Assembly (NCBI RefSeq): GCF_003201105.1
Contig: NZ_QICJ01000002.1
Coordinates: 496,001 to 560,000, forward strand
DNA: 64,000 nucleotides
Reading direction: 5' to 3'
Source of the DNA: Dyella sp. AtDHG13
GTDB taxonomy: Bacteria; Pseudomonadota; Gammaproteobacteria; Xanthomonadales; Rhodanobacteraceae
Made by a program: the position numbers and the translations under genes. The notes under the pieces were generated by a model, which ran no database searches, had not been told where the DNA came from, and saw nothing but the letters and a program-made list of their open reading frames with translations. Shown here one piece after another: positions 14,738 through 51,478 of this stretch. The stretch's first letter is position 1. Every line of letters begins with the position of its first letter.

Positions 14738-14863
14738 ATTGAACGATAAGGCGAGCACCCAACCTTTACCCCTCGGGGCTCACCCCAACCCTCTCCTCGC
14801 TCCTCAAAGCCGCAGCCATCCATGGCTGCTCCCCGCGTGCCCCTCCGGGGAGAGGGAGAAGAC
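14738..14863 (+). repeat. Intergenic repeat of the GAGCACCC/GGGGAGAGGG family, copy a
   Basis: It begins with GGCGAGCACCC and contains CTCACCCCAACCCTCTCC, a perfect 18-base palindrome GCAGCCATCCATGGCTGC (14812-14829) and GGGGAGAGGGAG. A 45-base core, ending at the palindrome, matches the inverted copy at 18697-18820 with about 4 differences. It fills most of the gap between the convergent HxlR and cysK genes and could act as a bidirectional transcript end. Confidence 0.75.
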
Positions 14864-28133: not shown

Positions 28134-30980
<2,847 letters not shown>

Positions 30981-30992
30981 ATTTCATTGAAT

Positions 30993-31045
30993 AGTGCGGC
31001 CATGGATGGCCGCTTTTTGACTTTAGCGCTCAGGGATGAACGCAC
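30993..31045 (+). repeat. 53-base two-hairpin intergenic repeat, copy 1
   Basis: It starts AGTGCGG and contains hairpin 1, GCGGCCATGGATGGCCGC, then CTTTTTGACTT and a second hairpin (arms GCGCTCA and TGAACGC with a GGGA loop, one mismatch). It begins 12 bases after the sucA stop. It is in tandem with copy 2 and in the same orientation as transcription. Confidence 0.85.
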
Positions 31046-31057
31046 CGAATTTTGAGA

Positions 31058-31110
31058 AGTGCGGCTAGGGATAGCCGCTTTTTGATCTTAGCGTTCAAGG
31101 ATGAGCGCAC
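31058..31110 (+). repeat. 53-base two-hairpin intergenic repeat, copy 2
   Basis: A diverged tandem copy. Hairpin 1 is GCGGCTAGGGATAGCCGC, where changes on both arms keep the stem intact (compensatory). Hairpin 2 is GCGTTCA/TGAGCGC with one G.T pair. It ends 17 bases before the sucB ATG, so it lies in the sucB leader, just upstream of the ribosome binding site. Confidence 0.8.
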
Positions 31111-31127
31111 TAACTCAAGGAAACTCC

Positions 31128-32333
31128 ATGTCCATCGAAGTCAAAGTTCCCGTCCTGCCCGAATCCGTTTCCGACGCCACCATCGCCACCTGGCACAAGA
31201 AGGCCGGTGAAGCGGTCAAGCGCGACGAAAACCTGGTCGACCTCGAAACCGACAAGGTCGTGCTCGAAGTGCCCTCCCCGGTGGACGGCGTGCTGAAGGA
31301 AATCAAGTTCCAGTCCGGCGACACCGTGACCAGCCAGCAGGTCATCGCGGTGATCGAGGAAGGCGCCGTCGCCTCCGCCCCGGCGGCCGCTCCCGCCGCT
31401 GCCGCCCCGGCTCCGGCCGCAGCCGCCCCGGCCGCTCCGGCTGCCGCCAAGGCAGGCAATGCCGACCTGTCGCCGGCCGGCCTGCGCGTGGCTACCGAGC
31501 AGAACATCGACGCCTCCAAGGTGGCCGGCACCGGCCGCGATGGCCGCGTGACCAAGGAAGACCTGGTCAACTACGGCAAGGGTGGCGCCGCCCCGGCCGC
31601 CGCTGCGCCGGCCGTCAAGCCGACGCCGGGTTCGCGTCCGGAAGAGCGCGTGCCGATGACCCGCATGCGCGCCCGCATCGCCGAGCGCCTGATGCAGTCG
31701 AAGAACTCCATCGCCATGCTCACCTCGTTCAACGAAGTGAACCTGGCCGAAGTGGTGAAGATGCGCAAGGCGCTGGGCGAGTCGTTCGAGAAGGCCAACG
31801 GCGTGAAGCTGGGCTTCATGAGCTTCTTCGTGAAGGCCGCCGCCGAAGCGCTGAAGCGCCACCCGATCGTCAACGCCTCGGTGGACGGCAACGACATCAT
31901 CTATCACGGCTACCAGGACATCTCCATCGCCGTGTCCACCGACAAGGGCCTGGTGACGCCGGTGCTGCGCGACGTGCAGGACCTGAGCTTCGCCGACGTC
32001 GAGCGCGGCATCGTCGACTACGCCAAGAAGGCGCGTGACGGCAAGCTGGGCCTGGACGACCTGCAGGGCGGCACCTTCACCATCACCAACGGCGGCACCT
32101 TCGGCTCGCTGCTGTCGACCCCGATCGTGAATCCGCCGCAGAGCGCCATTCTGGGCATGCACGCCATCAAGGAGCGCGCCATCGTGGAGAACGGCCAGGT
32201 GATCGCCGCGCCGATGATGTACCTGGCGCTGTCCTACGACCACCGCATCATCGACGGCAAGGACGCGGTGCTGTTCCTGGTCGACATCAAGAACCAGCTG
32301 GAGAATCCGCAGCGCATGTTGCTCGGTATTTGA
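31128..32333 (+). CDS. sucB: Dihydrolipoyllysine succinyltransferase (E2 of 2-oxoglutarate dehydrogenase)
   Basis: 401 residues. A lipoyl domain (1-75, lipoylated Lys43 in ETDKV), an Ala/Pro-rich flexible linker, an E1/E3-binding domain (about 107-145, [14 protein letters not shown]) and the catalytic domain with His372 and Asp376 in YDHRIIDG. The ATG at 31128 follows CAAGGAAA; an in-frame ATG 27 bases upstream lies within the repeat and is not used. Middle gene of sucA-sucB-lpd. Confidence 0.97.
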
Positions 32334-49386: not shown

Positions 49387-49439
49387 AGTGCGGCCATGGA
49401 TGGCCGCTTTTTGACTTTCGCGTTCACGGATGAACGCAA
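49387..49439 (+). repeat. 53-base two-hairpin intergenic repeat, copy 3
   Basis: It matches copy 1 at about 49 of 53 positions, and both hairpins are perfect (GCGGCCATGGATGGCCGC; GCGTTCA/TGAACGC with a CGGA loop). It is in the opposite orientation to the rpsO-pnp transcript, so the transcript carries its complement. It fills the gap between rpsO and pnp, ending 11 bases after the rpsO stop. Confidence 0.85.
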
Positions 49440-51299: not shown

Positions 51300-51352
51300 C
51301 GGCGTTCGTCCCTGAACGCGAGAGTCAAAAAGCGTCCATCCATGGACGCACT
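51300..51352 (-). repeat. 53-base two-hairpin intergenic repeat, copy 4
   Basis: On the minus strand hairpin 1 reads GCGTCCATGGATGGACGC, where G to T on one arm is matched by C to A on the other relative to copy 1. Hairpin 2 is GCGTTC/GAACGC with an outer mismatch. It lies between infB and rbfA in the orientation of transcription, 19 bases before the rbfA ATG. Confidence 0.82.
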
Positions 51353-51478
51353 TTTCAATGAGAATCCAGCCGACCGGCGTGGCTGGTCCCGAAAACAAAG
51401 CGAGCGATGTGGGTATCCACACCGCCCGCCGATAAAACCACCGCTGGAGTGACGGCCCGATCCACGGGCCGGTCACCA

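Follow-up and report, generated by a model that had tools for sequence, protein, structure and literature searches.

Several kinds of short, dispersed, hairpin-forming repeat have been described in bacteria. In passages of PMC3733652, the GTAG and CGTC REPs are presented as small hairpins with alternative complementary stem bases that lie predominantly downstream of coding regions. The ends of GTAG REPs often supply a stop codon, intragenic REPs are described from several species and include some in DNA repair genes, and two Rickettsia palindromic elements (RPEs) of lesser length, RPE-4 and RPE-6, are assigned to the CGTC REPs in the same passages. RPEs are characterized, in sections of two other sources (PMC10969869, PMC2229807), as palindromic and dispersed, occurring both between genes and in frame within conserved proteins that are unrelated to one another, where the peptide they encode is itself conserved. 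Intragenic and stop-codon-providing REPs (PMC3733652) and in-frame RPEs (PMC10969869, PMC2229807) are, on the evidence of these passages, already known, and a section of the 2024 review considers an RPE-like route of protein change conceivable in other prokaryotes (PMC10969869). The MITEs ERIC, RUP, and Correia/NEMIS appear in part of PMC2229807 as short, nonautonomous, dispersed, and hairpin forming, sometimes in frame in genes. A section of PMC4333381 gives TwoAYGGAY as a proposed binder of CsrA.

The element considered here was found in a 64,000-nucleotide stretch of Dyella sp. AtDHG13 DNA, the whole of which was analyzed and is termed the window. From sequence comparison, it is a genuine double-hairpin repeat, dispersed and of the REP/RPE kind, for which an mRNA role is probable. 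Its core of about 60 bp consists of a tandem pair of hairpins whose A-N-GGA loops share one strand. Compensating hairpin stems, dispersal, a position mainly behind genes, and intragenic copies are all shared with REPs, and the description "REP-like" in the earlier note is a fair comparison, although two hallmarks of GTAG REPs that were looked for (the tag and a RAYT gene adjoining the repeat) were not found. The conserved bases before hairpin 1 read AGTG, without a GTAG or CGTC tag; in 41 Rudaea copies, model positions 4 to 7 (the opening base of hairpin 1 and the three that precede it) were A in 38, G in 38, T in 39, and G in 37. No linked RAYT was found; such a gene is a trait of GTAG families only, CGTC REPs being also without one. 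The element resembles RPEs in being palindromic, dispersed, and intergenic as well as in frame in unrelated conserved genes with a recurring REDQEAAIHGRT-like peptide. It differs in its length of about 60 bp compared with 105 to 146 bp and in having only about 5 bp (GTGCG/CGCAC) inverted at its ends compared with 12-bp terminal inverted repeats (RPE values from part of PMC2229807), in folding as a pair of distinct hairpins rather than a single long palindrome, and in its free-living gammaproteobacterial hosts. MITEs are also short, dispersed, hairpin forming, and sometimes in frame, but the terminal inverted repeat here is only the 5 bp just mentioned, and neither a target duplication nor a sharp-ended empty site was seen when filled and empty mutS, sucA-sucB, and infB-rbfA sites were compared by eye; at rpsO-pnp, 2 of 30 loci were readable. 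Two hairpins with GGA loops are likewise found in TwoAYGGAY (RF01731), TD-2 (RF03162), and CsrA-binding sRNAs, from which the element differs as a dispersed, partly coding repeat that is often opposite to the mRNA. Across window positions 30700 to 31400, TD-2 scored 19.5 bits against a cutoff of 48.7, and TwoAYGGAY was absent at E values up to 10. At the Rfam gathering threshold, the window gave tRNA only, and ten further copy loci gave 6S RNA and tRNA only. Among the matches listed in a literature search, which left most subscription journals outside, there was no description of such an element in Rhodanobacteraceae, and the genus names Dyella, Rhodanobacter, and Frateuria were absent from two REP surveys.

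All four 53-base copies that the earlier note had listed in the window were recovered to the base. In what follows, a copy is called sense when its GGA strand runs in the direction of the genes and anti when that strand is opposite to them. Copy 1 (30993 to 31045, + strand; hairpin 1 at 30996 to 31013 and hairpin 2 at 31026 to 31043) and copy 2 (31058 to 31110, + strand; hairpins at 31061 to 31078 and 31091 to 31108) are sense and in tandem, and together they take up 118 bases (30993 to 31110) of the 147-base gap between sucA and sucB, as had been observed. Copy 3 is anti and lies in the rpsO-pnp gap (49387 to 49439, + strand; hairpins at 49390 to 49407 and 49420 to 49437). Copy 4 is sense and lies in the infB-rbfA gap (51300 to 51352, − strand; hairpins at 51349 to 51332 and 51319 to 51302). 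The model matches of the four copies were 81.0, 79.0, 82.2, and 76.8 bits, respectively. The arms of hairpin 1 also proved to be as first read, namely, GCGGCCA/TGGCCGC in copies 1 and 3, GCGGCTA/TAGCCGC in copy 2, and GCGTCCA/TGGACGC in copy 4, and the linker CTTTTTGA was retained in 4/4. A BLAST search with the tandem pair found five other places in the Dyella sp. AtDHG13 genome, at E values of 1.1e-16 to 3.4e-7. Hairpin pairs of the same geometry numbered nine in the window, compared to a mean of 2.2 and a maximum of seven in 30 Markov shuffles; geometry alone was deemed weak evidence, and the case was therefore rested on sequence similarity and on the relatives. A solitary GCAGCCATGGATGGCTGC hairpin was also noted in the window at 14812 to 14829 (− strand), hairpin 1 alone had 13 listed matches in the genome, and a 14-pair terminator-like hairpin (51399 to 51430, − strand) was present between infB and rbfA, on the infB side of copy 4.

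A covariance model was built from seven copies of the Dyella sp. AtDHG13 genome. It returned eight strong full-length matches in that genome (72 to 82 bits) together with two weaker ones (36.7 and 31.0 bits). The search of related genomes that the earlier note had proposed showed a family far exceeding four copies, as 46 of 61 genomes matched at an E value of 0.01 or less. At this threshold, matches were obtained from all 20 Dyella genomes, Dyella sp. AtDHG13 included, and from 15 of the 17 other genomes of the same family, two of these weakly (E values of 0.003 to 0.005). Weak matches were obtained from 11 of 24 genomes in other families of the order (best E value, 1.8e-8), many of them to single hairpins. 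The number of matches was 100 in Rudaea cellulosilytica (G027) and 58 in genome G036, counted at an E value of 0.001 or less. Tandem arrays of two to four copies spaced about 60 to 66 bases apart were recurrent. An exact-pattern scan of further genomes found at least 111 matching stretches; among the matches listed, most were from Dyella, Rhodanobacter, Rudaea, Frateuria, Fulvimonas, Dokdonella, Mizugakiibacter, and Oleiagrimonas, with others from loosely classified MAGs, some labeled Lysobacteraceae and one Thermomonas.

As judged from the alignments, the element is conserved as a fold, with the stems maintained by compensation and with the GGA loops and the linker kept. The information content was calculated from the 41 Rudaea copies that were of exact length, well paired, and nonduplicate, out of 77 rows. 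In each loop, the base N before GGA was random, with 0.08 bits in one and 0.10 bits in the other, while the six GGA positions carried 1.28 to 2.00 bits; at least 1.0 bits was reached at 24 of 28 stem positions and at 9 of 12 linker positions. The excess of compensatory changes expected from the window copies was borne out in two alignments, one of Rudaea copies and one of mainly Dyella copies, both fitted to the model and including related rows. In the Rudaea alignment, 88.9% of cells were paired, and 74 double-change cells were counted compared to 25.0 after shuffling; the corresponding values for the mainly Dyella alignment were 94.0%, 137, and 30.7. None of 500 shuffles reached the observed count in either case, and slid controls gave at most 16 double-change cells. 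One stem pair in the mainly Dyella set was present in all four Watson-Crick types at about equal frequency (CG, 21; UA, 20; GC, 19; AU, 18). Two of the five covariation measures in this set were less extreme, as 14 and 10 of the 500 shuffles, respectively, equaled or exceeded them. A third, outer helix, in which an upstream GAAGA would pair with TCTTC of the linker, was also considered. Its pairing in three sets equaled the expectation from base composition at each position, and it was therefore dropped.

The genes beside the element were named by NCBIfam with one representative each, and include ndk, rplT, pheS, atpG, atpD, efpL, and queE; sucA, sucB, rpsO, pnp, truB, rbfA, infB, and rlmN were named by eye, as were leuA and leuD in the genome of Dyella sp. 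AtDHG13. The statement that all copies were intergenic stood for the four in the window according to the gene calls but did not hold beyond it, where two of the genome's eight strong copies form part of the 3′ coding ends of leuA (sense) and leuD (anti). The two others outside the window, both anti, are at ndk-rlmN and between atpG and atpD. In the 96-copy set, made up mainly of Dyella plus G036 (96 of 98 rows), codirectional copies were 38 anti and 3 sense; many of these copies are orthologous, so that the anti class represents about 12 gene pairs. Copies at the suc and infB-rbfA sites were retrieved separately and lie outside this count. The preference for anti was weaker in Rudaea (30 anti versus 15 sense), and the named loci gave 35 anti versus 10 sense. 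The gene calls came from a simple codon-usage script that also gave shadow open reading frames on the wrong strand and misclassed some known sites, such as ndk-rlmN of Dyella sp. AtDHG13, which was called divergent. Among first copies of the anti class in the 96-copy set, 27 of 32 start within 3 nucleotides of the upstream stop codon; when recounted by gene pair, this was the case at 7 of the approximately 12 distinct anti pairs. At one Rudaea locus (L209; 1296 to 1480 and 1501 to 1558), a copy was observed about 20 nucleotides behind the 3′ end of a 6S RNA gene, on the opposite strand.

The role in mRNA processing or stability that the earlier note had put forward is plausible from this placement behind stop codons. 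The reading that we favor, and consider moderately likely, is that of a short, dispersed, palindromic element of the REP/RPE/MITE kind in the Rhodanobacteraceae that spread as DNA and of which many copies were retained as mRNA hairpins. Its spread would probably have proceeded via a folded single strand, through the action of an enzyme. Many copies would then have been kept at operon sites at which the hairpins are transcribed immediately after a stop codon, and these may act as intercistronic or 3′-end mRNA hairpins that protect or process the upstream message, which is the action proposed for REPs. The retention of the GGA loops in most copies of either orientation counts against this reading, as a plain mRNA stabilizer would not need them. 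The weaker anti preference in Rudaea also counts against it, as does the failure to find a mobilizing enzyme, near-identical copies in Rudaea, or a clean empty site. A rival reading is an intrinsic terminator or attenuator between operon genes, formed in the GGA orientation by hairpin 1 and the TTTTT behind it. A consensus scan did find hairpin 1 of all four window copies in that orientation, including the hairpin and T run of copy 1 (30996 to 31018, + strand). Most codirectional copies of the mainly Dyella set are reversed, so that hairpin 1 is followed by an ACTCTTC-like sequence, although copy 4 nonetheless scores weakly as a terminator in the reversed direction. Transcription into sucB would have to run through between one and three sense copies, and the second hairpin and the GGA loops would be left unexplained. 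Termination is considered very improbable.

Constraint in place was examined at the sucA-sucB site. Of 30 loci, 27 were readable by the start-codon pattern; in two genomes, sucB was not matched at the threshold used. One to three copies were present in 17 of the 18 Dyella loci read; the gap was empty in six genomes, one of them Dyella, and degenerate two-hairpin versions were found in three other genera. With one copy taken from each of 17 genomes, the mean pairwise difference was 0.67 at N, 0.65 in the flank, 0.16 in the linker, 0.09 in the stems, and 0.00 at GGA. Including the other genera, GGA was kept in 64 of 64 loops at this sense site (32 copies) and in 17 of 20 at infB-rbfA (sense), compared to only 18 of 32 at rpsO-pnp (anti), while the stems were 95 to 96% paired at all three. 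This count left out hits shorter than 45 nucleotides and one within a truB match, and it kept apart three hits on the opposite strand, found at suc and infB-rbfA, which had GGA in 0 of 6 loops; its rows are related rather than independent, and the model that found them favors GGA. Taken together, the three sites suggest an RNA role of GGA.

Such a role could be that of an RsmA/CsrA binding module, in which two C-G-closed A-N-GGA hairpins, bridgeable by one dimer, have been dispersed into mRNAs such as sucAB. The loops fit the CsrA motif as described in part of PMC4333381 (hairpins with GGA in the loop, generally paired), a csrA gene is present, the three-site counts point the same way within the limits just given, and in another family of the order there are again heads made of two GGA hairpins. 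For most codirectional copies (the 38 versus 3 above), it is the complementary UCC strand that would be in the mRNA, yet GGA was kept in 73 of 76 anti loops of the 96-copy set. No orientation effect was seen in Rudaea, where GGA was kept in 47 of 60 anti and 24 of 30 sense loops after duplicates, hits shorter than 50 nucleotides, and four poor-stem copies in each of the two sets had been left out. GGA was also unchanged at the anti sites ndk-rlmN (eight copies) and atpG-atpD (five copies). The rule that GGA is kept only when sense, which fits the three sites, was thus contradicted by these two and by the genome-wide counts, and it was concluded that a general reading of CsrA/RsmA acting on the mRNA is not supported. 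The binding module is regarded as decidedly unlikely, and an RsmA/CsrA role would be possible most clearly at sucA-sucB. At rplT-pheS (six copies), N was invariant and one GGA was lost, so this site gave little information. A further proposal is considered doubtful to the same degree. In it, a mobile A-N-GGA module, akin to the two-GGA heads, carries RsmA/CsrA sites into mRNAs and became fixed in sucA-sucB in Dyella as well as in other genera; if this were true, the insertions of a repeat family would be building a posttranscriptional regulon, and the same repeats would be translated as parts of proteins.

The about equal retention of GGA in both orientations in Rudaea can be accommodated by purely selfish REP/RPE-like DNA without a host role, whose stems and GGA would be kept for recognition as folded single-stranded DNA. 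The copies in both orientations, the GGA decay at rpsO-pnp, and the location of intragenic copies at points of the protein at which the segment is shorter in solved relatives are in keeping with this account. It does not explain why orthologous copies were conserved at sucA-sucB, ndk-rlmN, and atpG-atpD while N and the flanks changed much, and it is further opposed by the state of the Rudaea copies and of the transposase genes. No near-identical dispersed copies were found in Rudaea, the best pair among 69 rows being 91% alike, and hence no recent transposition is visible there. Y1_Tnp was not found in the genome of Dyella sp. AtDHG13 or in the copy-rich genomes G036 and G026; the copy-rich G027 and G003 have one each, and 40 of the 61 relatives have one. 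At 30 Y1_Tnp loci (at most one per genome), no element was found near the gene, and the best model match was 10.6 bits. Selfish DNA alone is considered fairly unlikely. That the element has dispersed was deduced from its presence differing between close species and from its occurrence in both orientations.

At least 23 of the 96 copies in the mainly Dyella set lie within six coding genes, identified in the relatives by NCBIfam (one member each) as mutS, formate dehydrogenase alpha, gcvP, leuD, ilvE, and leuA. In five of the six the element is read in the same frame and on the same strand, giving the REDQEAAIHGRT-like peptide; in leuA it is translated from the other strand. The element forms the C-terminal tail of the protein in leuD, ilvE, and leuA. 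In formate dehydrogenase alpha and GcvP it is located where solved relatives have a shorter segment, and the same applies to the MutS insert, for which the solved relative is 7ou2. The formate dehydrogenase alpha gene of Dyella G003 (L369, 1321 to 1558) contains four copies in tandem and in frame that make up a 20-residue protein repeat. Further host genes in Rudaea were, by eye, thyA-, hrpA-, and sbcB-like. A longer AtpG in some species was initially a candidate for a further insert and was traced to a start-codon difference.

The mutS loci covered 30 of 60 matching genomes. The element was in frame in 13 of the 36 MutS sequences read, two of the 13 being identical rows, and the site was empty in 23. 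The net gain in length over the empty site was 42, 45, 48, 57, or 105 nucleotides, all multiples of three. The site was filled in 2 of 20 Dyella genomes and in several genera. On a MutS tree made without the insert region, the presence of the element needs six changes, at least four of which are forced by well-supported branches; repeated gain, loss, or gene exchange is therefore required. An AlphaFold model of MutS with the insert, run with five sequences, had a mean pLDDT of 39.3 and was unusable, so no structural claim was based on it. Sites with and without the element are numerous in these bacteria, which are free-living and can be cultivated, and they include the mutS site and the four-copy formate dehydrogenase. 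They present the same element between genes, inside genes, and in both orientations, and could serve to separate selection on DNA movement, RNA folding, and protein tolerance.

Model hits in some further genomes were of other kinds. In G053 and G043, which belong to another family of the order, the model hits were the head of much larger hairpins capped by the GGA hairpins (L437, L438, L441, L444, L445, L447, L448, L451, L455, L456, L459, L460, and L463). Their long, near-perfect outer arms differ between copies, except for the apparent orthologues L445 and L451; 13 folds gave about −87 to −113 kcal/mol, and the hairpins are usually just behind genes. In G049 and G058, the 18-mer GCGGCCATGGATGGCCGC occurs in a different repeat that also holds a AGGCTGTTGAAAAACAGCCT-like hairpin. 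There were 18 and 11 same-score hits in these two genomes, respectively, and 11 loci were read (L442, L446, L449, L450, L453, L454, L457, L458, L461, L462, and L464).
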